Positions 114 to 58,691 of a DNA stretch of 64,000 nucleotides are shown here, one piece after another. The first letter of the stretch is position 1. Each line of letters opens with the position of its first letter. The DNA is from Antedon mediterranea. Its lineage: Eukaryota; Echinodermata; Crinoidea; Comatulida; Antedonidae. The translations under genes and the position numbers were made by a program. The DNA lies in NCBI RefSeq assembly GCF_964355755.1, contig NC_092679.1, forward strand, positions 1,612,001-1,676,000. Reading direction: 5' to 3'. The notes under the pieces were generated by a model. The model ran no database searches and was not told where the DNA came from. It saw nothing but the letters and a program-made list of their open reading frames with translations.

Positions 114-3100
114 CTTTCTTGTTGCATTTTGTGCTGAAACATAAGTCTTTCTTTCTCAAGTTCTTCTTGTTGTAGGCGTAATGCTTCTTTAGTTTTTATC
201 AACTCGTCTTTTTCTCTTTGAATTCTTTCTTGCTCTTCTGTAATAGCAATACATTTTTAAAAAGTGTGATGTGCCCAAATATGGCAGTGAAATGACATCA
301 TCGTGTCCATATATGGGCACATTACTCATACAGTTTGATAGTGTAGACAGATCCGCTTAATACAGTACAATGAATCATAATGGTGGCTAAGTATGGTTCA
401 ACCAGTGTAGCTGTGGTTTTCTAAGGACCATCATGGGCAGTAATATCAAAACTGAATACCTCTGAATCAGAAAAAAAAAATATAAAAAAAAAAAATCAAA
501 TTTTGGTACTCTGCTGTTACTAATCTATGCAGTGGGTTTAGTATGCTTACCAATTAATAACTGCTCCCTCTTCTTCTCCTTGTAGCGTATTGCTCTTAGT
601 TCTTCAAGTGACATCTCTGACACTCCTCCGTAGATAAGATGTTTAGGATACATAACTTTAGTTTTATCATCGGTTGTAGGGAACTGAAAAATAAATGATT
701 TATAAATGACCAGGCAATACTATAGCTGTAAAAGTTATTCCAAGGTACATTTGGTAGCAATCACATTGACACAGTACACATTTAACTATGGATATCTCAG
801 TATCTGTCTACACTCTATGCTTCCTATATGTTTGATAGGTACACTTACAGCATTAAGATATTGCACAGTTGTCCGTTTCTTCTCAGGCTTGCGAGCACTC
901 AGTACAGGATGGTTCATTGTAGGAGGCATGCGTGCCGCTCTGTAAGAAAACAACATCAAGTCAAGTATTGTTTATTGTCCTTTGTTTTAAGAAAAAACAT
1001 AGAAATTCTGTTTGCTAACATATTATTAATTATAATAGAATTTGTAGCAAGTACATACAGTAGATACATATCTTAGGAGGCAAGCATGCAGCTCTGTCTA
1101 CACTATCAAACTTTATGTGACAAAAAAATGTGATGTGTGCCCATATACGGACATGATGATGTGATATCACTAGCATATTTGGGCACATCACACTTTTTTG
1201 TCAAACTAGTTTGATAGTGTAGACAGAGCTTTAGTTAATAAAATCATGAATTATCTTACGTGATTTGATCGGTATCATCGTCAACGTGTACGACAACGGA
1301 TGGCCTTGATACTGGAGGTGGCATGGCTAGTCCATGCGGTGGAACCTGAATATTATAACAAGAATTATGTATATTATTCAATACAGTATATGCTTTATCT
1401 ATGTATAACATTTTTTCCTATTGTATATATCATTTTGATTTAATGTCTATGATTTTTAATTTGGTTACTGATACCCACAGCATTGTCATTTTTTCAATGC
1501 CTATTTTATTGGTATCTCCATTGAGATCCAGCCACTGATACCCATCCAGCATTGTCATTTTTCAGTAATTTGTCTTTGGATTAATAAAAATAAATTATGA
1601 ATATTATTCATATATGCTTTATCTATGTATAAAATTTTTCCCTATTGTATATATCATTTTGATTTAATGTCTATGATTTTTAATTTGGTTACGGATACCC
1701 ACATCATTGTCATTTTTTCAATGCTTATTTTATTGGTATCTCCATTGAGATCCAGCCACTGATACCCATCCAGCATTGTCATTTTTCAGTAATTTGTCTT
1801 TGGATTAATAAAAATAAATGACATACAAGCTAACTAATTAGCATACCTTATGTGATGTCCACTGTGACGGTTTCTGTACATTTTCTTTAGAGTCTACAGC
1901 ACGTGAAGGAACTGATGCCCATTGGCCAGTGGGATCTGGTACAACTGGAGCAGCAGCATTCTCATCATAGAACACAGCTATACGTTGGTTGCCAGCAAGT
2001 GGTTCTCTGCTACGAAGTCCTGTGAGGCCCTTGGGATCTTAACAAGAACAAATTTATACAGCTTATCTATAAATACTCATTTGTATTACTATTTATGTAT
2101 TCAATTCAATTTATTTTGCCATAAAGAAACACCTCAAAAAGCAAGTAATGGTAAGGAGAAATTTAGAATGAAAATTCTGAGTTGTTGTCTAACTTATCTG
2201 AATATTTCCCCCAATTTAAGCAACACAGTCAGGGGAAAAATGGCAAAAGGCTTCCTACTTTCTAGGAGTTTTATGTGGTTAAGTTATGAGATAGTCTATA
2301 GTGTTTTGGCAACTTTAACTCACTTTGTAACATGACCACAGCCATTTTTCAACAATTGAATGATTTAAAAACACTTGCAACCAAAAGCATACCTTTCTTT
2401 ACATGGCCTATTCTCTGCGTTCCCACTTTATGGTGCTTTCCTCGCCCTCTAAGTCCTCCTAACACAGTCCTTTCATCAGTCGCTGCTGAGTCATTAGTTT
2501 CCATAGACTCTATTGCACCTTCCATGGTTCCTCGTATAATCCTTGTTTGAAAATCTCTGAAAAAAAAAAAATCAGATGAAAAAAAAAACAGATTTAAATT
2601 AAATTAGGTTCTTAACCATGTCAATAAATATTTATCTAAATGTATTTTATTATGAATATATTTCCTTAAGGCAAGTATCAGCAAACATTACTAAATGTGT
2701 TTTGCAAACTAAAGTTTGCTAGTACAGTGTAGACTACTGTAAAGTTTTTTTTTGTTGCAGTTTACCAGAGTTTGTCAACCAGCTTGACAAACTTTGAAAA
2801 CAAAAGTTCGCTAGTGTAGACTAGGTGCATTCTTGACAACACTTACTTATGATATTTTACAAGCTGTTCAATAGGCGCTGCAAAACATTCAAGACCTCGA
2901 CTTAAAACAGCATCTGCTTTCTTTGTGTTACCCGCTTGTTCCAAGTTCCACGACCAGGCCTCGTAGAAGATAGTTAGGTTTGTACCAATGCCTTTATCAT
3001 GCATGAACTGAAAGGCTGTAGATGGCTCATCCAAGTAGTTGTTAGCCTGTAAAAAATAAAACAACTGAAATTAAGAAATGTTAGAAAACTAGTTTGATAG

Positions 3101-4054
3101 TGTAGACAGAGCTTTAGAAGAGAAACACCACTGCTGCAAGATAATATAGTTATTCATTAAATATTAATATTATCATAGTTACTGTGTAACATTCTTTTTT
3201 TTTATATTTATTTATTTATTTTTTTATTGCTGTGTAGCAATATTCTAACCATTTTAATCCATGCGTGTACGTATCTAGGATCATTGTGATACTTCTTATC
3301 ATCTTTGAATAAGCTGACGCATGTGTGAAGGATCTGCTCCAAGTTACTCTCCTTTCCACCTGTTGGATAGCTTTGTTCGGTCCAGTTAATGTATCTAGTC
3401 CAAACGCTGAGAGCATCATCTCCTTTGTAACTACGAAGTTCCTCTTCAAACTGTCTGTGTAGAAAACAAAAATAATCATTAATCTACACAATAAAAATTA
3501 CAATACAATCATTTTTTTATTTATTTAAATCCAAATGATTTAATAAAACATTTTTTATTAAAATAGACCATGGAATGGCATAGGCCTAGTTAACCTAAAG
3601 TTAATAGGCCTAGCTAGGCCTATTCAGTATTAATTAATTATAGATAGGGCCTAGGCCTAGCAGGGGCCTAAATAAAAAAGTTTTTTATTTATTTTTTAAA
3701 TTTTTTATTTTTAACATAAATAAAATAAAAATTTAAATAGGCCTATATGCCTAGCCTAGTCCCCTATACAATTTTAGGATAAGGCTAGAAATAGCCTAGA
3801 TATATGCTATCCCATACTGAATTATTGTAACATTTTTGGAGGCCTAAATATTCCTATCTAGGCCTAGCTAGCTAGGCCTAGCTTGAAACCAATACTTACT
3901 GCCGCTGTGCAAGTAGAGATCGTTGATGTTCGTCGTGATCAACATGCAGAGCCGATGTTAGACTTGTAAAGTTTCTTCCCTTTTTCAACGGCTGAACGTT
4001 CTCTTTGCAAAGTTCCCATTGATCTACACTTACTGCATTTACGCCTGAATCCAT
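114..4054 (-). CDS. BUB1B: BUBR1/Mad3-type spindle checkpoint protein, N-terminal part (gene continues beyond position 1)
   Basis: Exons in transcript order: 4054-3900, 3454-3250, 3046-2847, 2556-2393, 2037-1847, 1345-1260, 939-849, 683-551, 237-114; all junctions keep frame, giving 449 codons before a donor at 113. Visible: KEN box at residues 17-19 followed by VQPL; a TPR-like Mad3/BUB1 region at about 50-200 (VWTRYINWTEQSYP, GGKESN); a VFYDENA motif near 263; a second KEN box at 292-294; a GLEBS-type BUB3-binding motif at about 373-395 (KVMYPKHLIYGG, SLEELRA); then a basic, glutamate-rich helix. Two KEN boxes plus GLEBS is the BUBR1/Mad3 arrangement, the mitotic checkpoint complex subunit that inhibits APC/C-CDC20 at kinetochores. 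The C-terminus, where a kinase domain would be, lies outside the window, so a kinase-less Mad3 form cannot be excluded. Start: first ATG, directly before the conserved WEL-KEN segment. Confidence 0.93.
259..357. mobile_element. Family A miniature element, left end missing
   Basis: Contains the core AAGTGTGATGTGCCCAAATA, two perfect CArG decamers (CCAAATATGG and CCATATATGG) and the terminal GTTTGATAGTGTAGACAGA. BUB1B intron. Confidence 0.8.
1090..1233. mobile_element. Family A miniature element, full length
   Basis: Both terminal inverted repeats are present (GCTCTGTCTACACTATCAAA and its complement ending GAGCTTTAG). Its CArG positions are mutated. BUB1B intron. Confidence 0.9.
1364..1818 (+). 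repeat. Tandem duplication of about 220 bp in a BUB1B intron
   Basis: The segment from TATATGCTTTATCTATGTAT to GGATTAATAAAAATAAAT appears twice with few differences. Each copy itself contains two short repeats of GATACCCA...GCATTGTCATTTTT. Confidence 0.9.
2700..2826. repeat. Small inverted repeat resembling family A ends
   Basis: Contains AAGTTTGCTAGTACAGTGTA and AAGTTCGCTAGTGTAGACTA around TTGTCAACCAGCTTGACAA. Probably a separate miniature family with similar termini. BUB1B intron. Confidence 0.45.
3085..3117. mobile_element. Family A solo right end
   Basis: Only ACTAGTTTGATAGTGTAGAC plus AGAGCTTTAG remains, 39 bp upstream of BUB1B exon 3. Confidence 0.75.
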
Positions 4055-4424
4055 CACTTATTTATCATTATCTACAACTACTAAAAAAGAGTATTATTTG
4101 TTGACATATATTGAGACGAGAAAGTTTCAAGACAAATCTATCGTGTCGTGTCGCCGTTTATTTTTTAAATCTTCCGCGATCGAGAGTAGAAATAGAGTAC
4201 GCATGCGTTTACTGATAAAGAGTATTTCGGTTGAAATTAAATTGTGTATTTATAATTTTAATTATATTTAAAATTAAATTAAACATTTATTTTTAAATCA
4301 AAATATAATTTTTTGTACAAAGTATGAGAATGTTGATTTACAATGCTATATAATTTACACATTCTCTTTCCGGCCTCATATTTAAATTTATTTTTTATTC
4401 AATGTCGAAGGTCAACTATACAAT
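4055..4424. promoter_or_regulatory. Shared divergent promoter region of BUB1B and the DPF gene
   Basis: Only 370 bp separate the two opposite start codons, so core promoters and both 5' leaders must lie here or very close. A palindromic ACGCATGCGT at about 4199-4208 resembles an NRF1-type site, inside a locally CpG-containing patch (4140-4210). The DPF start codon sits in CAATATGGCTG, similar to the YY1 motif that often overlaps animal start codons. No TATA box can be assigned confidently in this AT-rich stretch. Transcription start sites are inferred, not seen. Confidence 0.5.
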
Positions 4425-7400
4425 ATGGCTGAAACTGGGACGGAGCAAAAAACAAACAAAACGAGGTTAATATTGGTTATTTCTGAGAAATTAGGTTTAT
4501 TAATTATATAGTTATTTTCTGTAATATATAGACTAGAACATTTTATGTTAACAGGCAATTATTACAGTGTTATAGTATCCGTTAACCACATAATTTTGGC
4601 TACCTATCTATCCTGGAAGGAACAAAAGAAATTACCGACGGCGGCGATGGCAAAAGAAGAAGCCGATAGCAGTTTAGGATGAAGTACGGGTCGGTTCGTC
4701 CTCATTAGTTTAATTAATGTTGTGTATGTTAGACTTCTAAATAGTACTAGCTGGGTAGAAGTAAAGTAGTATTCACTCAAAAATATTTATTTTATTTTAA
4801 TTTAATAAATTATAAAGAAAAAAAAGTGTGTATCAATAATATTAATATTAATAATAAAATTGTAAATATGTAAGCCTAGGGCCAGGCTCTCTGACTTGTT
4901 GTATAAATAATATTAATACAGCAACTTGTATTTTAAATCTTTTCAGTGAATATGAGCACTTTTACAAGGAAGCAATGGACAATGCAGCTCAGTACAATAC
5001 ACGTATGATGATAGAGAGACGCCTTCGACTGCCGTACCTAGACTCACAAACTGGGTTAGCACAGAGCAATTGCTACATATGGTTCGAGAAGAGGTTTCGC
5101 AGTCCGGGTCTTAACCCTGGGCAGATGTACACATATCCGTCTAAGAGATGGAGAAAGAAACGACGGCCCACTCCACCTCAACACGTACTCGTACCAAAGC
5201 CAACTGTGGACGGACAGAGTTCTGAAGGTATTATATCATTCATTCATCTTTATTTTATTGACCTAATTCATATAAAATTCAAAAAATCTTTGTTAATACA
5301 CTGTAGTTTACAATACATGGGAAATTTATAAAACAATAAAAAAATACAGACAATATTTAAAAGTTATAAAAAAAGATAAATATATACGATAAAAAAATTT
5401 GCCAAAATTCCTAAAAATTGATTTATAGTAAATTTATTTTTATTATTATTGATATAATATATTGCAGTGTAAAAAAATTGTAACTATATAAATATTGTTA
5501 CAATTTATAATTCAATTTTTGTTAGTGCAGTATCATGTAACTCCCTTGAATTAAATCACCAAACACTTGCACATTGCAAAACCATGTTTTAATACCAAGC
5601 CATGATGCCACACATGATATATACTTATGCTCACTGTATATACTTATTATTAGTTTCCAATCAACTTCTAATCAAAGGATTGTCTGAAGGCGTCAGTATG
5701 GATGAGAGTAGCATTCCAATCGAGACGAGACCAGATGCTGCTTTTTACAGTGATCTTGGACCTCAAGACGACTTCCCAGATGCTGGGGAGATTGATAACG
5801 TTGAAACAGAAAGTGATGAGGACTTTGTCCTTCCATCAAAGAGGAAGGCAAAAGCAAAGCCTAAGGTAATACAAGAAAAATTGTTTTTCTGGAACTTATC
5901 ATTAACTTTTCATCAATCATATTACACTTGTATCAACCTAATATATACCATGTTTGTTAATTTTATTGATATAATTTTAAACAAAAATGTCCTTCTTCTG
6001 TGTTTTTCACTAGAATTATCAATAATTATATCATCAATCATATTACACTTCAAAACCTAATTTTATACTATACCACGTTTGTTAATTTTATTGATGTAAT
6101 TTAAAAAAACAATTTAAAATTTGTCTCTCTTGGGCTATTTGCTAAATGTTTAATAAATAAAAACAAATTTCATAGGTTGTACTACACTGCTTTTACATGA
6201 CAAAGAAATTGGATATCTGAATCTCATAAAATTATTAAAAATGTATAAATTACCTCATTAATGATAAAATTGATCAATTAATATTAACTTTTTAAATGAA
6301 TTTGGTTAATGAAAATTATTATTATTATTATTATTACTAATTCTGTCTGCAGACTCCTGGTAGAAAGCGTAAGACTCAGGACCCTGACCATCAACAAATG
6401 ATACCACCTGAAGAAAAAGAAAAACCATTCGCTTGTAAAGGTAAATTAATATTGATATACACGATTGTACAGTATAATAAACATGAATTGAGCACACATA
6501 TTTCACCTTACTCTTTTTATACATTTTGTAGTGCATTTTTCATTCTCTTTTGTGTGTCACATGTTTTTCTTTTTTTATACAGAGTGTAATTATAAATGTT
6601 TAAATTTAAATGTTGTTTTAGCACAATAACAGAAAATATAAAATATTTGAAATTTTGTCAGTAGTATAATAACTAAAAATAACTCTCTACCTAGAAAATA
6701 ATTCTTACAAATTAACGAGTTTTTTGTAACAAATATAAATTTGTCTTATCAAATAAAATCCACAGTATCGATGTAATGCAGTATTTAAAATATCAAGGGA
6801 TTTTGAGGGAGTTCAAATAAATGAAACAATGTCTTTTATTTTTAATTAATGTATTAAAATGTTGTGTAGTGATCTTTGTTATTAATCTGTTGTTATTAAT
6901 TATTTATACTATTAAGGCTGTGTCTACACTATCAAACTATTTGACTAAAAAATATGTTGTGCCCAAATATGGTAGTGATATGCTCAAATATGGTAGTGTC
7001 ACATAGAGTTTGATAGTTTAGACAGAGCTTTAGAAATAACTTAAAGATGTATTGTCCCTTGAAACACAAAAAATGAAAAAAAAAATATTCTAAATTTAAA
7101 TTGGCCATATCAAAGTAATATTAAAGTTATTCACTTTAAGTCGAAAATTCGAGCCAAAAACAACAATTTTACGTAATTAACATGTAAATTAATTAGATTA
7201 CATTTCATCTGGGAAATCGTCGCAAGCGAAAGTAAACAAAGATTTCAAACCATGAGTATGCATTATGCATGATGCTAATTAGGATTGTTTACAACTTGTC
7301 ATGGTGGAGAAGGTGTTTTCACACAGATCGCGAGGAAGTTTTATGATTATGCATACAGAGTAGCCAAATAAGTGCGTTGCATTATGAGATATGTTTTGAT

Positions 7401-9888
7401 TGAAAACTTTGACTGGAAGTCTGTATTTCGGTTAAATTATTTTTCTTTTCGACTAATTTTTGGTGAAAGTTAATAACTATTATGATACTTCAAAATGACC
7501 CACTTTTTTTCAAAATTTGAAAAAAAATTTTTTTGGGGAATTAGTCAAAGGGACAATACATCTTTAAAGATAATATAACAAAGATGATGATATTATCATT
7601 GTTTCACACTTAAATCTTTAGTGTGTGTTTGTAGTGTTTTCTATGTAGTCTGTGTGGTTTCTTGTAGTGTGTGGCAAACGGTACCGCAATCGAGCCGGTT
7701 TGAACTACCACGTAACGCACACGCACCAAGACGAGGATGAGGAAGAAGAGCCGGAGGTTGTGCACAGTTCTCCCATGCCAATGCCATCGTCGAACCGCAG
7801 TGAGTTCGTTTGGCAAGCACAGTTAATAATGCAGGCATGCAGAACCATTAGTTTTGCTCTAACAAATTTCTTTTCACCGCAGATTTTTCTTTTCAGTAGC
7901 ATGCTTGGCGCTCTTGTTTGAGAAAAGCTAATATTTACGTTATTTTAACAGAATTTTGCATGGTTTGTTATTGTAACTGGAGCTTTTTGTGCAAAACTAA
8001 CATTTAATGTTTATTTCCTAACAATACATTTTATTTATCCCTGTAATTTTTTTTTTGATATCCACTATTTAAATTGAATTAAAAGTTCAGTTGCTGTTTG
8101 TGTTACAATGAGCAAAGCATGAAATCAGGTTGAATATACTCTTGTTTTCATTTTGTGGTAAAAGTTAAAAAGTAGTACAAAATAATGATTTCACTTATAA
8201 AAAAGATTTTAAGCAGAAACCCATTGATTTTTAGACAGGGTTTAAAACAACTTTTATTTAGATTTACTTGAAAAGTAACATTTTGAAATTGCATTTTTTT
8301 GCCTTGGAATGGCCGCACTGGTAATCATGCTTACATAGTGTAATGCCTATACTGTATTTCATTAGGCTTCCTATATAACATTACATAGTGGTTTCTGTGC
8401 ATGAAATTTAAATGTTGTTATTAATCATCATTATTAAAGTTACTTTATTCCATCATATTGTTTTAAATCAGAGTTAAGATAATTAGTTATTAATTTATCA
8501 GATGAACCACAAAAAACACCTTCATTTATGTTCATCATTTATTATTTATTTATATTACATTGTTGTAGTAACCACAAGCGGTAAAATGACATACTGTATA
8601 CTAATATACCAGTATTTAAAGGTGCATATATTAGCTTAAAGATCTGTGCTTTGTCTACACTATCAAACTAGTTTGACAAAAAAGTGTGATGTGCCCAAAA
8701 ATATCATAGTGATATGCCTAAATATGGTAGTGATATGACATCATGTCCATCACATACAGTTTGATAATGTAAACAGAGCTTTAAAATGTGCATCCTCCTT
8801 GTGATATGTGAAAATAAAATGAATTGAAACTATTTAAACCCTGGATGGTATACTAAATATTTTAATCTAGAAGCTTGATAAATGTTATAAAGATCGGTTG
8901 CTTAACTATTCAAGAAGAGGCTTAAGATAACATACATATTTTTACAACTACAACAGAAATAGCCCAATTCATAAATTAGTTATAATATTAATTTCTGTTA
9001 TTATTTGTTTGATAGCGCCCAAGAAGGTAAATGGCGTCCCTGAAGTTAGCAGCTATTGTGACTTCTGTCTTGGTGATGCTAAGAAAAATGTGAAGACGGG
9101 AGAAGCAGAGGTATTAGTGTCCTGTTCAGACTGCGGACGCTCAGGTCAGTCAAGCTCTATTTTACCCTATCTCGCTTTTAAGAATTACATAAATGCTGTT
9201 GCTTACTTACTCATGAAGCTAGGTTATAATTAATAGCTAGTTATAATTTAGTGTTCTTTTTCTTGTTCAGGTCACCCATCTTGTTTGCAGTTCACGGACA
9301 GAATGACAGCTAATGTAAAGAACTACAGGTGGCAGTGTATTGAATGCAAATCATGCACATTGTGCGGAACCTCAGATAATGATGTATGTTAAATCTAACA
9401 TTTTCAATCAAATTTAGTCAATATAAAGATCTGTCTGCACTATTTGTTTGACAAAAAAGTGTGATGTGCCAAAATATGATAGTGATATGGCATCATCGCG
9501 TCCATATATGGGAACATCACATTTTTTTGTCCCACAAAGTTTGATAGTGTTGAAAGAGCTTAAGATAGACAAATTCAATGTAAACTTAGTACATTGTTAG
9601 TATTATTAAACCATATTAATATTTTGTTTCCATCTGTATAGGATCAGTTACTGTTTTGCGATGACTGCGATCGTGGTTATCACATGTACTGCCTCACACC
9701 ACCGATGTCAGCGCCCCCTGAAGGTACCGTTACTACAATTCTTAAACTAACTATTTTAGGAGTAATTTTAATATTTTGTTTACCTAAACCTTTTTGTTTT
9801 GTTTTTAGGAAACTGGAGTTGTGCACTATGTCTTCAACAAGTAAAAGATGGATTGGTACCAGAGTCAGAACTCGGAGAGCAGCAGTAA
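4425..9888 (+). CDS. DPF2: D4/requiem family protein (DPF1/2/3; zinc finger ubi-d4-like), complete
   Basis: Exons: 4425-4465, 4947-5227, 5678-5865, 6353-6440, 7668-7799, 9016-9144, 9271-9383, 9642-9723, 9809-9888; in frame throughout, 377 aa (vertebrate DPF2 is about 390). Order: the requiem N-terminal domain at about 14-90 ([18 protein letters not shown], then RWRKKRR); an acidic and basic linker; one C2H2 finger (C198, C201, H214 and H217 or H219) with the family signature GKRYRNR; then tandem PHD fingers, PHD1 from C258 (YCDFCLGD) and PHD2 from about 315 ([16 protein letters not shown]). The double PHD module of this family reads acylated histone H3 tails as part of BAF (SWI/SNF) complexes in the nucleus. 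It is probably the single invertebrate counterpart of DPF1/2/3, so the symbol is family-level. Several miniature elements sit in the introns. Confidence 0.94.
6915..7033. mobile_element. Family A miniature element
   Basis: Short copy with both ends and two core units (one perfect CCAAATATGG). A family B element begins 8 bp downstream, so two elements abut in this DPF intron. Confidence 0.9.
7041..7567. mobile_element. Family B TTAA-flanked miniature element (527 bp)
   Basis: Left end TTAAAGATGTATTGTCCCTT and right end its exact complement AAGGGACAATACATCTTTAA region (right end reads GGGACAATACATCTTTAA). No open frame. TTAA at both borders fits a piggyBac-type target site. DPF intron. Confidence 0.88.
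8648..8785. mobile_element. Family A miniature element
   Basis: Both ends recognisable, diverged core with no perfect CArG box. DPF intron. Confidence 0.85.
9427..9563. mobile_element. Family A miniature element
   Basis: Left end diverged (ATCTGTCTGCACTATTTG); contains CCATATATGG; the right end terminates in GAGCTTAA. DPF intron. Confidence 0.85.
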
Positions 9889-10799: not shown

Positions 10800-13700
10800 T
10801 CAAGATGCATTAGATGATGGTGGTCGGTTCTTTCCAAGACTCTTTATAACGGATGATGCTGGAGCCATGAGGACTTTGCGTGACAGACGCATTCTACCGC
10901 TGACTGGGTCACGACCAAAGTATTTCACGTGTATTTCTTGTCCAACCTCAAGTCCTAATGCACTTGGATGGCTAACCTTAAATAAAATTAAACACAAACA
11001 TAAATTTAAGAAATAAATTGTTGCTGCAATAAAAAAAAAGTAACTTTAGCCATGCAACCATTTAAACAATATTATAATATCAGCTATTTGATTACAAATT
11101 CTCACCTTTCTCTGGTCCAACTGTGAGACATGTAGCAGTGAAGGCGTCATGGTAGGATACAGCTTTATCATTACACCACTCTCCCTATGTCAAGCATGTA
11201 AGACAAACATAATCAAATTGTGTTTAGTAATGTGTGAATCTACTACGATGTGTTATACTATAAGATTATGCAATCTTCATTATAAGTTTGTCCAAAGTAA
11301 TTTCTGTATCAACAATGTAATGGGAATATGACTTTCAACAACATAAAAAGATACTGTTTTCTATACAGTATTCTTTTTACAGATACTGTAATATGATAAT
11401 AAAAAACTTCATACCTAATTTCATTGATTGTAGCTGTGTAAACGCCACCAAATTCCAAGTTTGGTTCTCTCTGTAACCAAAACAAAAGAAGTAATACACA
11501 GATATGAATTTGAAAAAAAAACTACAGTACAACAAATCACAATTTAAAATACAACTTAATTCTCACTTACATCATCTACTAACAGTTTTTCAATTTTCAG
11601 TTTGGCCTCATCCATTGCAACAGGGGAGGGTGCAAACACTTGGAAGTTGGTCTCATCAAGCTGTGTAATAGTAATACCAGTTTCTGCCCGTAACTTCTTA
11701 AGGTTGTAACCCCCTGGTCCTACAAAGTGGGATCTTCTTGCTATTGGTACCTCTAATGTTTCTGTGCAATAGTTGAGTTGATAAAATAAACATATGTTTC
11801 TATAGAATTTGAATTGTACTGTTTCTTAAGCTCTGTCTATACTATTGTGATGATCACTAAATGTGATGTGCCTATATGGACATGATGATGTCATATCACC
11901 ACCATATTTGGACATATCACTACCATATTTGGGTACATCACACTTTTTTTGTCAAACTAGTTTGATAGTGTAGACAGTGCTTAATAAACTCACTGACCAG
12001 TAAATGGACTATTACTCACTGACCTGTAACTGGACTATTAGCTTTCCTATCACTTCTAGGTTTGCTAATGACGTCACTCATAATTTTGATGATCTCAGAC
12101 TTAGCATGGGTTCCTTGTTGAACAGCCTCAGCAATTAACTTCATTGGAATTGGGAGTTTAAAATCTGCCTACAACACACAAGAATAAAAAAAAAAGATTA
12201 AAATAAACATTTACAAAGAGTAGAGTTCAAGTCCAACTTGACGGAGGTTCAGATCATGTTGATGATCTTTAGAGGGCGCTGTGCAGAACCAACAAATATA
12301 AAAAAAAGTCATACTCGCCTGTAATGCTGTAATTCCTTTTTTGGTTCCAGCTAATTTAAAATCCATATCACCCATGAAGTCTTCAATACCCTTTAAAACA
12401 AACAAAAAATTAATTATAAAAGAAAGTATACGAGTAATTAATAAATGTATTATTTGCGAAAAAAAAAATTAGCATAAACTAACCTGCTTGACAGTCTCTT
12501 ACGAAAAAGAAGTGATTGTTACAACATGAAATGAAGGCCTACTACTGTATTGTAATAAATAAATGTCTTACCAGAATATCAGTTAAAATTTTGTATTCTT
12601 CAATCTCGTTAGATTCCTCGTTAACGTTGGTCATTAAGCCAATGGCAACACCAGCGACTGCGTTTGATATTGGCACACCTATAATTAATAATTGATAATA
12701 ATTGACACGCCTGGGAACAAAGTGTGCATACAGTACACAAGAAATAAAGTTAGTGGTTGTTTTAGAGGCCACATAGGAATGCCTGAAACCGGTAAGTTCT
12801 AATGTCAAAGGCTGTGCTTAATCAATACATTTTCTTATTCTTCTAATGTAAGTTCTCAAACAATATCTAAAGCACTGTCTATATTATCAAACTTTATGTG
12901 ACAAAAAAATGTGATGTGGGCACAAACTAGTTTGATAGTGTATTCAGAGCTTTAGAAACTGATATTCTTACCTGCATCCATCATAGCCAAAGTACCTCCA
13001 CAAACTGACGCCATTGATGAGGAACCTAGAACAAGGAAACAATCAATAAAATAATAGGTTTCAGATTTTCTTTGTAGGACAGAAAAATAAGCTAAATCAA
13101 AATATAAAACTAAAATATAAATAAAACCCATTCACTGTCTTACCATTGGATTCCAAAACTTCTGACGTTAGACGAATCGTAAACGGGAAATCTTCTGGCA
13201 CCACAGACTTTAAAGCTTTCTCTGCTAAATTACCTAAAAAATAATTTTTACAAAAATAAATAATGTATGCAACATCTTATGTCTCTTACACAACAGCCTA
13301 TTAAAGAGTTTTAAAAACTGATCAAACAAAACTTACCATGACCTAGCTCCCTTCTTGACCCAGATTTGACCCGTCCTATTTCATTGGTTGCATAAGGTGG
13401 AAACTGCAAATTGAAACGACAAACATGTTTAACACTCAAATTGGACTATAATGAATCTAAATATTTACAGTATTTACATATTATTATATTTACAGTATTT
13501 ACATATTCCTTGCTTACCTCATAATGCAACATAAAATTCTTTTCCTTTACTCCACTAAAATAAATTAAATATTAATTAAATTAATACTGTATGTAACATA
13601 GCACATTCATTCATTGTCATTCAATTGTTTTTAAATGTTTTATAACAAACAAAACTGACTTACTCTAATGTGTCTGACAGCGAGTTTGTCCGCAATGCCG

Positions 13701-16700
13701 ATTCTATTGAATCAAATGTAACTGTACACAAAACCTGAAAACACAAGAATATGTCAGAAAGAAAGAAAGATTATAAAGAACCATGTACTGTTATGGCATT
13801 TGCCAATTATTAGTACACAAACAACAGAATGACATGACAGACTGTTAAGCTCTGTCTACACTATCAAACTTTATGCAACAAAAAAATGTGATGTGCCCAT
13901 TTATGGACATGACGATGTCCTGTATCACTACCATATTTGGGCATATCACTACCATATTTGGGCACATCACACTAGTAGACAGACTGTTACCTGTGTTTGA
14001 CCGCGTTGAAAGATCGCTGAACCATGTAAAGGTTTGTACATATCAACCTGACAACATATATTGCGCAATTCATCTAAATTTCTACCATCACACCTGAATT
14101 CAATATATATAATGTAATGGTTAAGATCTATATCACATACACTACATGCTGGGGATCCAGTTTTGTTGAAATGGGGATGGTTTTTATATTTAAAAAATGG
14201 GGGTGGGGGAAGTGGCTTTTTTTTATTTGATGTTATATAAAAAGAACAAAATTATAGCACACAGCTAAAACAGTTTGTATTAAAAATTTTAAAAATGAGT
14301 TAAAAATCTATAAAAATACAACTATATTACAAAACAACTTTCAGGTCAGGACTGTAGTAGTATGACTGAAAATCAAGTCAGCAAAACTTTACCTCTTCAT
14401 ACACAACCAAATAAAACGGTACCTTGTAAATTTAAGGTGTTCATCTATAAGGTTGAAAGAAAGTTCAGAACCATCAATCAAATCTATTAACATAATCTCA
14501 CCTTTTATCTTCATCTAATATAAGATTGCGAAAGATTTGCTTGGCTAATGCATAGAAAGTTTCAGTTATTATATAGTTTTCTTCATCTGGAAATACCTCT
14601 GTTTAAAAATGAAAGAAATGTTAGTAAAGTATCAACAATTGAAAAGGGTTATTATTATAATAGAGGAAAAATATTCTAAAATAGTATTGAAAATGGCAGA
14701 ACATACCTGCAACTTCTTTAACAACTTCATCTCGTACTAAACTCAATGCATTGTCCCGTGAAAACTAAAAAAACACACATAAGAGTAAGTACCAAAGATG
14801 ATATCTAGTAAGTAAAATAAAAACATTATTTCTAATTGCAGAAAACAATATTTTAGTTTATTTTACTGGAACAAGATGTACAGTATGTAATTTTACTAAG
14901 ATGGAAATTAGTTTAACATTATAACAATTTGTTAAAAATTAAATTGAAAGAATTTTAAAACCTTATCATGAGAGTCATCTGAAAAAACTCCATAAATCCT
15001 ATCATTTGCCAACCTAAAAAAAATAAAAATTGACCTTATATACTTGATTAATCCAAACATTCTATTATTATTTTATTTAATAGTACTTACATTACATACA
15101 GTATTCTATCGGATTTGTAACCAGATTATAATCAACTAGAGAGAGGCAATAGTAAATTGGGCAGGAACTCTTTGAATTTTAGCTACAGTATGAATACATT
15201 TGAATTCACTCTCTAGTTAATCAAATAAACTCTTTGTAACATACTCTTTTATTTTTGTTTGCAGTGCCTCTGATGGCAGCATCTCTGTCTGCATCGTTCT
15301 CTTTTCTTTCCCATGATTCTTTGCAAGGTTCTCAATGGCTTGAATAATTGGCTGGCAACCTCTGACCCCTAGACGTACTCCTTTCAAAAAGTCACTCTGT
15401 AACATGTTTTCTGCACTTGCCTCTATCATAACTAAAACAGGAAATGGAAATTATTTTTAGATATTGAAATGTATTTGCATGGGATAGGTGATTTATCTAA
15501 CTAATGACTACTAATTGTAAACTTAAGCTTACAGTACCTACATTGCTCTTTTTAGAGCCTGCTACCACCATATTTAAATCGCTATTTTTTAATTCTTCTC
15601 TTGTTGGATTCAAGATAAACTCCTCATCAACTCTTCCAACCCTGACTGCTGCTATAGGTCCATTCCAGGGGATGTCAGATAAAGAGATGGCCGCAGAAGC
15701 TGCAAAGACACAAAACAATAAATTTAGCTCTGTCTACAGTACCAAACTATAGTTTGACAAAAAAAGTGTGATATGCCCAAATATGGTAGTGATTTGATAT
15801 CATCGTGTCAATATAATGGGCACATCACATGTTTTTTGTCACACAATGTTTGATAGTGTAGATAAAACTTCAGTTTTTTCTATTTTTAATTTTTTTTTTT
15901 TTTAAATGCACATTCTCAAGCAAGAGCAACTCTATGAAGGTCTGCATATAAATAAATTAAAAGCAATAACATACCAGCATTGATACTAATAACATCTGGA
16001 TCATTATAGCCATCAACAGCTAATATATTACAGATTATCTGAAATAAGAACATTTAAAAAGTACTTGATGTTAATATGTAAATGTGTAGCCAAAAAAGAT
16101 GTGTGATCAGTTGTCTTTTGTCTACACTATCAAACTTTATGCGACAAACAAATGTAATGATGCCCCATGATGTCATATCACTACCACATTTGGGCATATC
16201 ACTACCATATTTGGGCACATCACACTTTTTTGTCAAACTAGTTTGAAAGTGTAGACAGAGCTTTAGTATTTGTTTTTCAGTCTTAAGAAATAACCTTCAT
16301 TTTGTTCTTAATTATTAAGTATGAGTGCTCTAAATCTCATATATAATGAAGAATACATTTAAAGAAGATGCCTACCTGTGTATCGTAGGAATATCCTTTT
16401 GGAAAAAGAGGTCTGATGCAACGATCTGTAAAGCAGATAAATTTCACTGAATAACTGACTACACAAGTTTTGTGTAAGATAGTTAGAAATTCTAGATTGT
16501 AGAATGTATCACATAGCATGAGCACATCACATTAACCACTATCTTTTCCTTTAACATTCCTTCATATTAAGAAGGTAGAAATTACAATGTAAACAATAGA
16601 ATATTATGTTAAGTGATCTTTGGTAGCGAGAACAGGATGATCATCAGGCCTTAAATGAAAGACTTACCAATAAGCCTACTCGTCAGTATTTCATTGTCTG

Positions 16701-20282: not shown

Positions 20283-21095
20283 ACTGTTATGTTATAATAT
20301 ACATTGACCAGAGGTGGATTTATGGGAAGCGGTTATGTTTATACTAGAAAGATACAAAGTAACATCATATCACTGCTTAATTTATTTTCTAAATTATAAA
20401 GTGATTTAGTCAATATCGTTCCTGGTTACCTGGATAAACTGACAATAGCCCTCTCTCTTGAGAGAGAATACAATTACGAAATGAAGAAAATCTGTTAAGC
20501 ACCCCTATCGGATTTCCTTTCATATCGCCGTGGTGTGTATATGTTTATTTATTATTAAAAGTCAAGATTACATAAAAATTGAATCAATTTTGGGTGGACA
20601 CAATTTGCATGATTCAACTTTTTTAATTAAGGACAAAATTGTTCATTACCTTAGGAATATTAAAGACCTGGTCCAAAACTGGTCTTTATTACACTATCAA
20701 AAAAATGTGATGTGCCCATAAATATAATGGACATGATGATGTCATATCACTACCATATATGGGCATATTACTACCATATTTGGGCACAAACTAGTTTGAT
20801 GGTGTAGTAGACAGAGCTTTAGGAAGAATTCCTCTGCTTTGTATTTGAGGTGTTTTGATCTGTTTAATACACACACCATCTAATCTTTGTATGTCAATTT
20901 AATATATTATCAGATTTATACAGTAGTTCAAATAACACCTGTTCCTAAGATTGTCTATAATTTTATACAATTGAAACTTTCCTGGGACCCTTAAAAGTAA
21001 AACAACCTTTTGCAGCTGTTTCTTATGGATATGTGAATGAACATTTGTTGTTAAATATTAAGTGCAGAAATAAACTCTGCAAAATACTGGAATTC
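20283..21095 (+). other. 3' UTR of the MSANTD3-like gene
   Basis: Non-coding stretch from the stop codon to AATAAA at about 21069, with GT-rich sequence just downstream. It contains one family A miniature element (20686-20822). The end point is inferred from the motif. Confidence 0.5.
20686..20822. mobile_element. Family A miniature element
   Basis: Left end degraded, right end intact (GACAGAGCTTTAG); boxes CCATATATGG and CCATATTTGG. In the MSANTD3-like 3' UTR. Confidence 0.85.
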
Positions 21096-28560: not shown

Positions 28561-28580
28561 GTGTGTGCATTAGAATATAC

Positions 28581-29802: not shown

Positions 29803-29949
29803 GCTTGGTTCCCACTGGAGACGAAACGCAAGGACGTAACGCAACGTAAATGAGTTGACCAGTCACAAGCAATGGATTATTCCCTTGTCATTGGTCAACA
29901 CGCTTGCGTTTACGTCCTTGCATAGCGTCCTAGTGGGAACCAAGCTTTA
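29803..29949. mobile_element. Family F palindromic element, copy 3
   Basis: GCTTGGTTCCCACTGGAGAC at the left and CCTAGTGGGAACCAAGC at the right. Most compact copy. Confidence 0.85.
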
Positions 29950-37500: not shown

Positions 37501-40500
37501 ATATCCCCAGGTGGTCTCTCCCATCCAAGCTCTAACCCCGACTCACTGTTGCTTAACTTCTGTGATCTGACGAGAACCGGTGTTTCAACGCCTTTTAGGG
37601 ACTATAGTTTGAAATCAACTAATTGATAGTGAGATTTATTAATAGTCATAAAATGACAGTAAAGTTTGACACTTGATTTATTAGTTTGTCATTTTTTATG
37701 AGTCTTTTATGCTTTGAATGAATATTAACATCAACATCAACAAATCAATAATATTAATAGATTCAGATTTTTTCCCCAAAAAGTTTGCATAATAATATTC
37801 AGTATACATACAGTAATATTACCACTTCTTCACACCACCTAATAATAGCTTGGGATTTTCTAAGACCTAGAAACTAGTCATGTCATGTTAATTCATTGTG
37901 CGCATGCAGAGAAGATAAGATGTACTTCATTGCTCAATTCCTTGACAAAGTTTTGGCAAATTCTAAGTCCAGGGAATAATTTAATGAATGCATATGTTTG
38001 TAGGTCTTCGCAATGAAAAGCTCCTTAGTATGTTAGTTTGGAGTAATCTAGGCAATTTTTGCACAGCCTGCACACAGCTCTCTTAAGGTGCCCTCCAACG
38101 CTGAGTAGTTTCATTGGACTGCTGGGGTCTGAGCTCTGGGGCGTCTAGATTTAGCCAGTGAGCGCTCATAGCCGTTATGCCACAGCCCACACATTATTAT
38201 GTAAATCTGAGCGCAGTCATAAAAAATTGAAGAGAATCTATAGGTTTTTTAGGGTTTACGCACAAAAGCACTAACATTATCTATAATAATAATGGTTTTA
38301 ATAAATAAAGTCAGCAGTTAAACCTTTCTTGAGATTCTCAATACCTTAAAGAGTATTCTGAAAAGTGTAACTTGACTGTATGTAGTATGATTCATTTTTA
38401 GCATGACACGACAAAAAGGACAAAGAAACAAAAAGAAGCAAATATTGCCAAGAAAAAGGAATTGGACCAACTTCATGACCAGGTCTTGATCAGTGAGAAT
38501 CAGTTGTCAGATATTCGAAGGGTATAAACTACTTAAATGCTCATCTATGTTTTGTCATATTGTTAAGAAAAGTATATATTCTAAAAAAAATCAAACTACT
38601 TCGTGTAAAGCTCTGTCTACACTCAAACTTTATGTGATGTGCCCATGGACATGATGATGTCATATCACTATTATATTAATTTGAGCATATCACTACCATT
38701 TTTGGGCACATCATACTTTTTTATCAACTAGTTTGATAGTGTAGACAGACCTTTATACCAATTAATTCATTTTGCAATAATTGATGACTTGATTTTTTTT
38801 TAATTTCACTTTTGTGTATATTAATCATTCATGCAAGATTTTGAAGAATAACTTTTATGTAACATTGAAACAAAAAAATAAATAAAAGCTACTAACATTT
38901 AATTTGATTTTTTTGAGAGCACACATATGTATCTATACCATTCTATTTCAATCAATATAATATTTTATGAGGAGATTATTTTTTATGTTTTAAAATGGGT
39001 TTTGTTTTATTTCAAAGACGGTACGGCGCTATGAAACATCTAGGTTACGTTTGGAGGGTCAGGAAGAAGAGTTAACAATTCAATTAAACAAAGAACTTAA
39101 AGAAAATGAAGACCTGGTCCAAAAGGGGTAAATGATGACGACGATGATGATGATGATGATGATGATGATTCATCTTCTAATCATGACATCATTTTTTTAT
39201 CAATACAACATTGAAATTCATGCTCATGGTATAATTTTATCATCATGACATTATCTCATTGTCTATTTTATCTTCATTTTATCTCTTTTTTTTTAGGGAG
39301 GATCTTGCTAATATGCAACTGAAATTAACAAACAAATATGAAAGAAATAAACTTGAGCATAATGAAAACATGAAACAGGTTCGTCCGTCTGTCTGTGATT
39401 TCTTTCTTTCATTCATTCATTTCAGAATTGTATATTTACTATTTTAGCTTCCTGAGTACAATAATGTATTTATTTTGTTTATAGCTTCAATCAGAAATCG
39501 CCCAGACAAAAGTTGGATATGACAAGTTAGATGAGGAATGGAAAGACTTGCGAGTAGGTGAGTTACCAGATTGAGAAGAATAAGAAAATAACAAGTTTTG
39601 AATATTAAATGCACATGTGTGCTCTCAATGTGTACTATAGTAGAGCTATGCTAGAGTGATGTGTATGCAATGGGTCATATACCCCTTTCACACCAAAACT
39701 CCGGAGTGATCTCCGGAGACACCGCAGGGTTTATGACCATTCAAAACGTCGAGAAACTCCGGAGATACCCCTTTCACACCAACCTAGCAACACCGGGATT
39801 TATAAAATAAAATTGTAAATGTCGCCCTCTATTTTGTTTGTTTACATAGCGACGATCATTAGAATCATTTTAATTATATTTTAAATTTAATAATTACTTT
39901 CAAAAGTCTCAGAAGTAATATAATGTTTTATTGATACTACTTATTATTTACTAGACCCGCTATATATTTTATACAAATATTTAAAGTATTTTGAAATAAA
40001 ACTAAAGCAATGAGTGATCGTGTGAGGATGACCTTTTGACCCGAACACTCCGGAGTTTGATGTTGGTACCTTTCACACCAAAACACCAGAGTGTCCCCGC
40101 AGTTTGCTCTCCGGAGAATGTTCAGCTGTTCAACCCCGCAGTTTTAAACTCCGGAGTTGCTTGATTTTACCTTTCACACCAAACAGCGGGGCGTCAACTC
40201 TGGAGTGTCTCCGGAGTTTTGCTTTTGGTGAGAAAGGGGTAATATTTACCTATCATATCATAGTATACCTGTGTGACCCAACAATGTCTTAATAGTGTAT
40301 GTATCTCCTGAATAGCAGTTTCTTGTAGTGTTAAAACATATATGGCGTATAATCCTTTTCAAAGTGTCTCCTTATATTTTAATAGTGATGTCCCTTGAAC
40401 AGAGGTATCCCACAGAAATAGTAGTTCAATTTATATTCAGATAATTGTCCCCTTGACAATTGACAATATACGCTAGGCCATATGAGGCCTAACGGTCCTG

Positions 40501-43500
40501 TTTTGTTTACACTCCATCACGGTCGAAAATCGCTTCACACACGACGCTCGAATCACAAGTCGCCAAAACGGAAAACCCCTATTTGGTATCGGCTGCCATA
40601 AACAAGCTTATTAAATTTCTTTGGTACATTTCTATCTAACGAACATTGTATACTTGCTTTTCTGCTTGATGAATTCTTGTTGTTTAAAATAAGATATTCT
40701 TCGTCGTACACGTCGCAACACCTTGTGAGGGCGCTCGCATGGTGGTTTCAGAGGAGGAATGTCCATGATTGAATACACAGTACATGTGCTGTTTTTGACG
40801 ATCTGCATTTTTGGATCCTCGGGTATAAGCCCACCCCCCAAACTTGACGTGATTTCATGTTCAAGGGGGGTGGGCTTATACCCGCGTCAGTACGGTATAT
40901 ATACTTTTTATTCAAATGAAACAATTAGATGAAAACCATCAGTATGTTGAATATGTACCTTGAACAGGGTATCCCACAAAAATAGTAGATCAAGTTAACA
41001 TTACTAACACATTTTATTATGTACCAGCAAGACTGCTGCATTCTGTCATGTTTTGTTTTCAATCACACTCTTGGCTGGTGAGAAGATATAAAACAAGTCA
41101 TTATGCCAAATTTGTGTCACATTTTTCTCGTCAAGATGTAAACATCTAAATAAAACTATTATGATTTATTGTATTATCTTTATTCTTATGTTATCTTTAT
41201 TTCTTATAACCAGATGAAGCGACTGCCTCTGATATTCAAAAGAGAGAAGGCGTCAAAGTTAAAGAATTAGATGATGCGTGAGTTTGATTAAATTAATTTT
41301 AAATTAAATTAATGTCTGTATGAATGAATATCAAGAATATTGAATTAAATTACATACAATATTTTAAATATTAGTCAAGCTACACTTGAAAGGGAACACC
41401 ATCGAGATACAATAAACACATTGTTTGTATCACATGAAACCTCCCTAATAGGGGAGTCCCATAAGAGACATTTTAAAGCCTTGTCTACACTACCAAACTG
41501 TAAAAAAAAAATAGACTGTACCTTTATAATGGACATGGTGATGTCATATCACTACTGGATTTGGGCATATAAATATGAAATTTTTGGGCACATCACACTT
41601 TTGTTGTTAAACTAGTTTGATAGTATAGACAGAGCTTTATGTAGTTAATTTTAATGCATGTATAAAAACCAATCATCCCTTCTGAATGACCAAATAAAGG
41701 TTTTTTTTTCAGATTACAAAGCAAAAAATCTGAATTAATGACGAAAGCAAATGAGACGGCAAGAATGAAGCAAGAAAATGACGTAATGGAAATGCAAATG
41801 AAACAATTAGATGAAAACCATCAGTAAGTTGGGAAAATGATGACACTAGTGTAAAGATACTTTCACATCGCGCCTCGATTCGGTCCAGTGCCGTGAGGAA
41901 AATATCGCGAGTGTTGAGTGTGCTTTCACATCGAGCACAAATTTGATTTTGGTCAAGCGAGGTCATTCATGCTCACTGCTAATTGGATGTAAGTAAAAAA
42001 TTGTACGATTTTTAAATAAAAAATGGCCTCTTGATCCATTTTCCACGATATTTTTCTCGGGGCACTGGAGCGAATCTGGCGCAATGTGAAAGCACCTTAA
42101 GCCTTTAGATAGAATGTCACTCTCTAGACTTTCAAATCCTGCCAATTTATACCTCTTTAATTTAAAAATACCTTTTGTGCCACAGGATTACAATTCAACT
42201 GCTACAGAAGCAAATCGAGGATTTTCGAAATCAACTTGCGAAAGAAAGAAAAGAACGCTTTGACCTTCAGGAAAAACGGGATGCACTCAGTCGTGAAGTG
42301 GAAGATTTTCGCTCAGGTTTTAACAAATTTATGCATAATATCAACGAAAGAATGGACAAAGCAAAGACCGATCACAGAGATCTGAAAAATGAGGTGCTTA
42401 TACATACAATTGTCAAAACACCCTTAGAGTTGCCCAAAATGACCCAGTTTTCAAAATATTTATTTTAACGATAACAATTTAATTAGGCTTTATATAAAGT
42501 TATGGTTTTGGGAAAGTATTACAAATATCCCCTGAAAAAAATAATTTTTGAAATTTTTTTTTTTATTACTCTTCGTTTTTCTATGTTTTTGGGGGACAAT
42601 ACATCTTTAAACTTGGATTGATTTTCATTGTTAAGTTTTATTTTATTTACAGGCGATTCAGCTTAAGAAAAATATTGGACAGGATGAAATAGATATGGAA
42701 ACACTGGGATCAGAATTACATACATCAGAGAATGCATTTGGGAAGATGAAGTCACAACTTGAAAATGTTATTGGTCACTTACAGGTAAGATTCTTATCAA
42801 AACAAGTCTCGATTTTATTGACCATTCAAATTATTGACCATTCCAATTACTGACCATTCCAATTACTGAAATAAGAAAAAACTCATTAATTTAAATTTAT
42901 AATTCAGGGTGAAATTGAAGAACTAGAAAACCAACTAGCAGAAAAGATACATACTATTGAAGAAAGGACACCAGCATATGAGAAACTGGAAAATACATAT
43001 ATGGAAGAAGTTAAAGAATATGAAGATAAGAAGAAGAAAATTGTCAGTAAGTACAAACAACTATATAGAAGATCATCATCATTTATGTGCACCTCCAACA
43101 CATTTAAAAAAAATGTTATTTATCAGTTTTGGCACAAAATAGAATTTATAGAAACATTGAAACTACTCAGCTTGTAAAATAATGTGTTTGTAATTGAAGG
43201 TGTTACTGTGATCATTTTCATACTAGCAAACAGGCCATCCTGTCTGTATGTGCTTCATATTATAACAATACTCTTTAAAATAATAACCTTTGAACTTTGG
43301 TGTTCCATTGGTGTTTGTTTGTTTGTAGTTAAGTAATGTGCTAACGGAGTCTTTTTAATTGTTTTTGAAGCTGTATTCTGTAAATGAAATAAAAAAACTT
43401 TAAAAAAAACAACAAATAATCAAAATTTTTAGCTAAAAAAACATATATGGTCTACTACTACTACTGGTCTTTATTTAAAGCTTGTACTTTTACTGAAGTT

Positions 43501-43741: not shown

Positions 43742-46345
43742 AACGTTATAGGAAACGTTTCAAGTTTTGTGTTATTATCAACACCAAACTCATAAATTAT
43801 AGTGAAGTTTCCTGTTTTTTAAATTAGAATGTTTTGATAGCTTGTGTTTGTTTGATATCAGATAGGATGTGGTTAACTTATAGTGGTCAACCATGTGCCA
43901 AACCTGAGGGGAGGTGTACATTGTTTTAAATCCCTTTTGTATATAACTGCATCATATTGGTTAACAACCTATTGCCCACTGCCTGTACAAATTTTTCCTA
44001 GAATTGCCTTTAACTTTTATTGATGACGTAATTTCAACTCATATGCATATTCTGATAACAGATAGTAATTATTATAAGTTGTTGTTTACAATGTGTACTG
44101 ACCATTTTCAATACAATTACTTTAGAGTTGGAAAAAACATTAACTAAACTTTCTATATTACTCCTTGGCGCAAAGTTACTTCGTATAGCTAAAATAATTG
44201 TCATTATAATATTTAATTAACCCATTGTTAGTGTACAATAATTAGGGAATAAAGAATTGTTTGATTTTAAGTGGGCAGAATGGAAGTGTTGTGCTGCAGC
44301 TGTTTCCGAGGAAGTGTACTGTAAATCTAGACACTATATGTTGTCAATGTCATATGGGATTTTGACTGTTTTATGTTCTATTCAAACATTAGTAAAAAAA
44401 ACTGTCTTTTTTTTTTTAAAGATAGACCATATAATGTAAATTTGGATTCATTCTAAGAATATGAATTTTTTTAAGATAAGGATTATTAAATTCATTATTT
44501 GAAGGTGGTGTGGGAAGACAATATAATTTCTGTAGGTCATCTAAATGTCATAGTTTAAACTTTTGTTTTTTTCACTATAAAGTTATCATCTATTATTATA
44601 AGCTCTTTAACTCCAACTATGGTTTACGGTTTCTCCTTGGCCTTATCCGCGGCTAATACAGATACACCTTATTGGCTTTGAGTTCCTAGACTTGTTTATA
44701 ACTCCATGTTTAGGATATTGATTTATTTGTTGGTATCTTAAATCTTTAACAAAATTAAGAGTATAATACAATACAATTATATTAGAAACGTTTACAGTAC
44801 TGTGCCAGATAGAGTAACTAATAAAATTGATTCATTAGAAAATTAAAGGAAGCAATATATAGCGGTGTATTGAATCAGAGAAATGAGTTATCTACCAGCA
44901 AATATTAAGACCTGCCAAGTGTAGATGACCTTAGGGGCAAGGAAAAGGATATGTGGGATCATTCTAATACTAGTTAACAATAACAAATAATAATCCTTGT
45001 ATATCGGAACTCCCCAAGTTGCAATAAAAAATGATCTTGTTTAATAATCACATAAATAAAGAGATAGCCAATTTGCATAGCTATTTTTATTAGAATTATC
45101 ACAGATGACCAGAAAATAAATAGGATAATGACATTGATGCTTTCAAACAAATATGAGTTTATGTCGTTCTGCTCATGTGCATATAGGAGTCACATGACAT
45201 GTCATGAAATAACGAAAAGCTACCTTGCGGTGTTATTTAACGCTCATTGTAAATCCAGATAAAGAACTTTTTATGGTGGATGGGCCGTTGCTTTGGCTTA
45301 AAGATAATTGTAGACGACAGTAAATCATAATTTAGCCAGTTTGTATATATTGTCGTAGGTATTTATTTGAATTTCCAATGGTTGTCCATAGCTAGACCGA
45401 ATTTGCATAGTATTCACTCACCTTTCATATTACTTGAGGACCGTGTGATGATAAAGAACAATAACATGTTTTAACACAATGTAAGATCTGATAGAACTTA
45501 TATGCCTACATCTGACCGATTCAACTCGGCTAATTTAGTGGTTTTGAAAGACTGCAAGATGCAGTTATTTTCAACAAGTTGTTAAACATAGTTGATGAAT
45601 GTGTGGGCAGTTGACAATCAGAAAAACATCCATCAGCCCCAAAGCTCATAATTTTATTTCATGCAAGAGTGATTACTCGAGATGCTTTAAAGTACAATAT
45701 ACATTCACTTCCATGATGCAATGTATGTTAAATTGTTACAGCAATACAGCAAGAGTGAGGTAGGATCTTTTGCATGATTTACTAGATTAAAATTTTGCCT
45801 TTTGATTTACATGTTTAAAGCTCTGTCTACACTATCGAACTTTATGTGACAAAAAATTGTGATGTGCCCATATATGGACATGATGATCACATCACTACCA
45901 TATTTAAGTATACTGTATCACTACCATATTTGGGCACACTTTTAGCTAGTTTGATAGTGTAAACAGAGCTTTAAATAAACATGAAAAATTTAATTAATCG
46001 TATGGAACATCAAATTTGGAAAGCTTAGCTGCATAATGTGACCACCCACTGCATATGCAACTCACAAAAGATCTTTCCTAGAGAAGATGATAATTATGAT
46101 ATTTTGTCTTGGTTAGTCATTGCGTTGGGTGTTGTGTTTGATGACAATTAGACATGATTTGTTTTGATAAACAAGCTTTTAATGGTTAGTTATATTGTTT
46201 ACATACCAGCTTAACAGGTAACTGAAACATGTGAGATCATTAGTACATTTAATTGTTATGACGATAAAGATTGACGTGAAGTGCATGTAATGTGACACTG
46301 TGTGATGGATATCATGTCCTAGTTTCCAATTGGTGATCTCAATAA
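43742..46345. other. Sequence after the CCDC175-like gene, no gene recognised
   Basis: AT-rich, one family A copy (45814-45975). I looked for further coiled-coil exons to complete CCDC175 and saw none that I could support. Confidence 0.5.
45814..45975. mobile_element. Family A miniature element with TTTAAA borders
   Basis: Symmetrical borders TTTAAAGCTCTGTCTAC and GTAAACAGAGCTTTAAA; boxes CCATATATGG and CCATATTTGG. Confidence 0.9.
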
Positions 46346-58145: not shown

Positions 58146-58536
58146 TTTTGTCGGTGGATAGTTTATTTAAGTGATGCAATGGAAATATAAATAAACCCAC
58201 TGAATTGATTTGATGATGTTCACCAATTATTGTCATATTGTGAGATTTGAGTAATATACATCTGTTTGCTTCCCACCTATACTTTGTTTTTCTAGCTTCT
58301 CTGCTTGATAATTTGGTTATAAATGTGTAGGTTTGTTGTCACGATTAAAACTTTTTAAAGTTATCATATATATTATAGTTTGAAATGCTTTAATATTTCT
58401 CTATATATGTTACCATACTGATTTTGATTAAAATTGTAATTGAATTATTGTATGTTCTTATTGAGTACCAAATCAGTCTAATCAAAACGTATACTTATTG
58501 AATTTGGATTTCTTTTTCTTGCTTGTAATTTATGTG

Positions 58537-58691
58537 CAAGCTCTGTCTACACTAAACTTTATGTGACAAAAACATTTTTATATATCCATATATGGACATG
58601 GTGATGTCATATCACTCTACTACATTTGGGTATATCACTACCATATTTGGGCATATCACAAACTAGTTTGATAGTGTAGACAGAGCTTTAG
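58537..58691. mobile_element. Family A miniature element
   Basis: Both ends present; boxes CCATATATGG and CCATATTTGG. The only copy seen in the right 18 kb. Confidence 0.9.

Follow-up and report, generated by a model that had tools for sequence, protein, structure and literature searches.

The crinoid Antedon mediterranea carries, in a 64,000-nucleotide stretch of its genome (positions 1,612,001 to 1,676,000 of contig NC_092679.1; hereafter the window), a short repeat that contains perfect CArG boxes, the type of site bound by SRF. A sequence-only reading of the window had described a miniature element family with 20 copies, and had proposed that it might scatter SRF-responsive modules across the genome. 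Merging blastn matches also gave 20 copies of one repeat. The question raised by the locus is whether the CArG boxes are there on account of SRF, or whether they have travelled with a transposable element (TE). The analysis described below indicates that the CArG enrichment is real and large, and that it follows from the amplification of a Harbinger-like miniature inverted-repeat transposable element (MITE) that has the decamers in its arms.

CArG boxes in the window and in the genome

Perfect CArG boxes were scored as CC(A/T)6GG decamers, using the reversed pattern GG(A/T)6CC as a control. The window, ∼68% A+T by base counts, contains 22 such decamers, 21 of which lie inside 12 of the 20 copies; the only one outside is at position 12335. 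The earlier count by eye (about 20 decamers in 12 copies) was therefore correct. The reversed pattern was found once. Under a first-order Markov model, 5.6 ± 2.4 decamers would be expected (50 simulations, maximum 12).

The imbalance was also evident in the complete genome (354 Mb, 18 contigs), where 66,066 perfect CArG decamers were counted versus 20,116 instances of the reversed pattern. Decamer CCATATTTGG appeared 11,702 + 11,679 times (23,381), its reversed control 255 + 258 times (513), while the palindrome CCATATATGG was present at 11,516 places and its control at 531. These two decamers, both typical of the element, add up to 34,897 of the 66,066 perfect CArG boxes. Because their reversed controls are so low, we attribute most genomic occurrences of CCATATTTGG and CCATATATGG to the element, an attribution made from counts. 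The AT-rich composition of the window might have been thought to generate the boxes by chance, but the 22 decamers seen instead of 5.6, together with the genome-wide counts of the CArG pattern and of CCATATTTGG relative to their reversed controls, refute this explanation, which retains almost no likelihood.

Other features reported for the family were also recovered. The shared 21-bp unit, ATATCACTACCATATTTGGGC, has five exact occurrences in the window and 7,699 genome-wide (3,807 + 3,892; reversed control, 0), and the single CCATATTAGG does occur once, at position 33383. The proposed variant of the cAMP response element (CRE), TGATGTCA, has 16 occurrences in the window, of which 10 fall inside copies; the only true CRE of the window, TGACGTCA, lies outside every copy. 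The exact 26-mer of the element's 3′-end appears 3,104 times in the genome and three times in the window, and the exact 32-mer of its 5′-end 1,780 times in the genome. Scaling from these few window matches (3,104/3 for the 26-mer and 7,699/5 for the 21-mer) gives a rough figure of ∼20,000–31,000 genomic copies. Five CCATATTTGG decamers spaced at exactly 38 bp were observed at G000:C1:89283-89444, perhaps a satellite derived from the element.

Structure of the element

A sample of 160 non-overlapping copies, all from contig C1, was collected without regard to the presence of CArG boxes; it comprised the 100 listed matches to the 3′-end 26-mer and 60 of the 100 listed matches to the 5′-end 32-mer. 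Ends and interior are common to the 20 window copies and to both parts of this sample. The element is ∼140–180 bp long, with consensus lengths of 140, 161 and 182 bp for forms containing one, two or three 21-bp units; these forms were the best fit for 71, 78 and 11 of the 160 copies, respectively, although some copies, such as L011, have more units than the three modelled. Median divergence from the consensus was ∼6%.

The consensus ends in perfect terminal inverted repeats (TIRs) of 22 bp, with terminus AGCTCTGTCTACACTATCAAAC, and its arms are near-complementary for ∼59 bp, with CCATATATGG at the inner end of one arm and CCATATTTGG at that of the opposite arm. For copy L101 and its flanks, 346 nt in all, the folding energy was −67.1 kcal/mol, compared to −28.6 ± 3.6 kcal/mol for 100 shuffled sequences, none of which was as good (z = −10.8). 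The family is therefore a short, non-coding, high-copy foldback MITE with one to three or more 21-bp units. The hairpin arms have CArG decamers as their inner tips, and the other decamers belong to tandem copies of the 21-bp unit, so these boxes multiplied together with the element. At three places in the genome, two fused TIRs form a near-perfect palindrome.

Decay of the CArG boxes

If the boxes served SRF, they might be expected to outlast their surroundings; the sequence-only reading had itself held that decay at the rate of the rest of the element would speak against its proposal. This was examined in the 160 copies. Since the copies share ancestry, and variants of a subfamily are counted repeatedly, P-values are guides only. 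The C/G positions of the CArG boxes (first and last) had changed in 127 of 1139 cases (11.2%), and other interior C/G positions in 334 of 2778 (12.0%; odds ratio 0.92, 95% interval 0.74–1.14), an outcome mostly against the proposal. Within inner units, change was more frequent at the C/G positions of the box (102/381) than at the other C/G positions (43/380). The main cause is that 29 of 100 such units have AA in place of the final GG, which destroys the box; GG was present in 42. A CArG-less unit has therefore been multiplied. The last unit has GG in 105 of 156 cases and AA in five. No perfect CArG was present in the aligned part of 44 of the 160 copies. When decamers with four C/G were ranked by retention, the CArG boxes of two-unit copies were 10th, 19th and 29th of 35, and those of one-unit copies 2nd and 8th of 23.

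Several observations point the other way. The decamer ranked 2nd of 23 in one-unit copies was CCATATTTGG. Gain of C/G at the A/T positions of the CArG boxes was seen in 55 of 2285 cases versus 177 of 4210 at other interior A/T positions (P = 0.00015), although the difference from the adjoining ATAT of the same unit (33 of 967) was not significant (P = 0.12). In the set selected by the 5′-end, the CArG C/G positions of the last unit had changed less than the other C/G positions there (19/216 versus 38/225; P = 0.015); the set selected by the 3′-end had no such deficit (50/372 versus 47/364). Lastly, at 4,726 genomic places with intact anchors, the CArG-type decamer was kept in 2,851 (60.3%), while a nearby control decamer with an equal number of C/G was kept in 2,402 (50.8%). 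This single control was poorly chosen, as its last base borders a T-run: among 100 listed matches, CArG was kept in 58 and the control in 51, or in 55 when the edge base is ignored, with C/G losses of 41 and 49 (of 400), respectively. Part of the excess is therefore an artefact of the control, and a small unexplained remainder may persist. As to whether the decamers are kept better than neighbouring bases, then, their C/G positions show no excess retention, their A/T positions gained C/G less often than other interior A/T but not significantly less often than ATAT, and the paired decamers point mildly towards retention. The motif is real and abundant, with no clear sign of preservation for function.

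Target site and superfamily

Flanking sequences followed the pattern C-TWA-[AGCTCTG...CAGAGCT]-TWA-G (W being A or T), that is, a preference for CTWAG. Both ends were placed in 80 of 117 copies; 32 of the 80 had C at −5, and 32 had G at +5, so the insertion preference reaches beyond a 3-bp duplication. Both ends could be placed for the target-site test in 108 of the 160 copies; identical three-mers stood beside the TIRs in 40 of these, compared to 29.4 ± 3.6 after shuffling (13 of 5000 shuffles reached 40), and the W position alone gave z = 3.0. A smaller, earlier set agreed (27 of 64, versus 18.3 ± 3.0). A 3-bp TWA target-site duplication is thus found, with moderate support. A TA-only duplication, as in mariner elements, does not fit, since agreement between the W positions of the two sides is more frequent than in shuffles.

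A 3-bp duplication combined with a wider target preference is described for PIF/Harbinger elements (PMC2836001). The same text depicts Tourist-like MITEs of this superfamily as non-coding and high-copy, with a TWA duplication, a perfect TIR and a wider preference, all as seen here; the Antedon family differs in its ∼59-bp arms, its tandem 21-bp units and in that no autonomous partner was found for it. The assignment to PIF/Harbinger is consequently likely, not proven, for two reasons that tell against it: in 29 of the 108 copies a left-hand TAA was paired with a right-hand TTA, hence no true duplication, and no autonomous element with these TIRs was found in the loci described next.

That search relied on domain PF13359 (DDE_Tnp_4), which we take to be a mark of Harbinger transposases and for which the genome gave 150 scored matches. 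Around 40 of these (159,368 bases, half of the 40 with only ∼1.5 kb on each side), no pair of AGCTCTGTCTACACTATCAAAC-like TIRs was present; there were two lone TIR-like words with five edits (L209 and L211) and three blastn matches (E = 0.82). One locus (L208, 1304-4376) is a Harbinger-type element of 3.07 kb, whose inverted ends are identical over 37 bp and which has TAA duplications; its TIR, AGCCTATTTTCCAC, starts with AGC and differs from that of the MITE. In six further stretches of 6 kb, each lying upstream of a 3′-end whose interior was truncated or odd, no transposase was recognised by eye among the longest open reading frames (ORFs; at least 110 aa, up to four per stretch, judged without Pfam). 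Two of them (L123 and L126) had reverse-transcriptase-like ORFs and another (L128) a long host-like ORF. The L126 ORF (4247-6001, 468 aa) lies between ends resembling the two TIRs of the MITE, and is perhaps a long interspersed nuclear element inserted in a MITE copy.

As a separate observation, a window ORF at 19058-19456 (+) encodes a Myb/SANT-like DNA-binding domain (PF13873, E = 1.5 × 10–14), and is possibly a transposon accessory or a domesticated gene. The ORF beside it (19746-20282, +) had no Pfam match, and a further one at 55757-56230 (−) had a weak match to Myb_DNA-bind_4.

Possible explanations for the CArG boxes

The explanation that we consider probable is that MITE amplification accounts for the CArG excess, and that the family is a PIF/Harbinger-type foldback MITE, not a family of SRF modules. 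The element would have been mobilised in trans by a transposase supplied from elsewhere, no autonomous partner having been found. Its decamers, located at the arm tips and in the tandem copies, would have been carried along during the spread, becoming abundant because the element did, and most of them would by now be decaying like the surrounding element DNA, as the C/G positions of the sample do. A refinement compatible with this explanation is that transposition maintained the internal motif, as a site for the transposase or for a Myb-like partner, its likeness to a CArG box being accidental. The two ends carry the motif in inverted orientation, and it is repeated in tandem; GG predominates in the last unit and is less common in inner units; and the Myb-like ORF1 protein of PIF/Harbinger elements is regarded as the probable DNA binder (PMC2836001). 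Against this, the analysis identified neither a cognate transposase nor a Myb-like protein, and we regard the refinement as a tentative possibility with somewhat less than an even chance. The internal motif would more likely be a remnant of structure used in transposition, such as hairpin arm or binding sites of the transposase or its partner, than an SRF module.

Two matches in the genome together make up a MADS box of SRF type, and a further MADS exon is MEF2-like, as named from their sequence features; both element decamers fit the CArG consensus. Since SRF is encoded, its binding to individual copies, or their co-option, is possible. That the family distributes functional modules, with SRF binding many copies and some of these co-opted as enhancers, would be in line with the presence of those MADS exons, with the large share of the two element decamers among genomic CArG boxes, with their retention above the one control decamer and with a plant precedent, the Helitrons carrying PHERES1 sites in Arabidopsis (PMC6914339). 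Yet the C/G positions of the boxes decay like their neighbours, and nearly a third of inner units bear the CArG-destroying AA, which makes this role improbable. Likewise improbable is that the MITE, as supplier of about half of the perfect CArG boxes, has a large share of its intact copies bound by SRF (or MEF2), whereby part of the SRF network would be rewired or SRF titrated by a genome-wide sink. The proposal of SRF-responsive modules thus stands as regards a miniature element family with boxes far above chance and scattered genome-wide; the modules themselves, possible for some copies, are unsupported for the family by the decay.

Copies in the window and their surroundings

The copies (merged blastn matches) and the perfect CArG boxes found in them by the decamer scan were as follows.

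54..86 (+), 3′-end alone, without CArG
259..362 (−), CArG CCAAATATGG (275) and CCATATATGG (307)
1090..1250 (+), both TIRs, without perfect CArG
3086..3116 (+), 3′-end alone
6908..7039 (−), CArG at 6963
8648..8785 (−), without perfect CArG
9422..9571 (−, orientation by content), CArG CCATATATGG (9502)
11826..11990 (+), two CArG (11902, 11923)
12868..12960 (+), internal deletion, without CArG
13841..13990 (+), three CArG (13897, 13931, 13952)
15722..15870 (−), CArG at 15777
16119..16265 (+), CArG at 16205
20698..20821 (+), two CArG (20753, 20774)
32239..32392 (−), without perfect CArG
32775..32907 (−), without perfect CArG
33281..33485 (+), best fit to the three-unit form, three CArG including CCATATTAGG (33383)
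38603..38758 (+), CArG CCATTTTTGG (38696)
41472..41640 (+), without perfect CArG
45811..45990 (+), two CArG (45868, 45924)
58538..58696 (+), two CArG (58586, 58641)

Several copies lie between ORFs resembling exons of DPF-like and PNPT1-like genes, the latter name being our assumption. Pfam gave one strong match to DPF1-3_N. In a separate comparison of 10 ORFs, a match to RNase_PH was below the cut-off and seven ORFs had no match.

Other repeats are present in the window. One of ∼450 bp is interspersed in three copies (7068-7516, 28620-29078 and 47713-48188), the first of which begins ∼30 bp past a MITE copy. A large inverted repeat (46378-47083 / 50014-50385) has 372-nt arms that are 96% complementary and 3,264 nt apart, with tandem copies of 162–167 nt around its left arm. 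A tandem array of 22-bp units extends over ∼800 bp (35852-36665).

Known parallels and significance

The Antedon repeat is a new MITE family; TE-borne MADS-box/CArG sites have already been documented in plants. In Arabidopsis, RC/Helitrons carry CArG boxes for PHERES1, as supported by chromatin immunoprecipitation sequencing (ChIP-seq) and expression data (PMC6914339). In both cases a TE family spreads CArG-like MADS-box sites through a genome, the difference being that the plant case concerns a Helitron with ChIP-seq data, and the Antedon case a DNA-transposon MITE of an animal, known from its sequence. Carrot DcTourist_15 elements (PMC13102513) are also Tourist-type MITEs in which a transcription factor motif rich in A and T is enriched, in their case LHY/RVE sites whose binding was shown by DNA affinity purification sequencing; in Antedon the factor would be SRF. 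Among the matches listed for CArG or SRF together with transposable elements, as judged by title and the opening of the abstract, PHERES1 was the sole direct precedent recognised, which does not deny that an animal case is in print. Words of 13–15 letters from the element retrieved nothing apparently related in the full-text literature.

If SRF binds the copies, a single transposon family would be the source of about half the perfect CArG decamers in the genome of an animal. It would then be a clean natural experiment on the fate of ready-made sites in their thousands, which may rewire a regulatory network or go ignored. If SRF does not bind them, the family would be a cautionary case in which the abundance of a motif in a repeat follows copy number.

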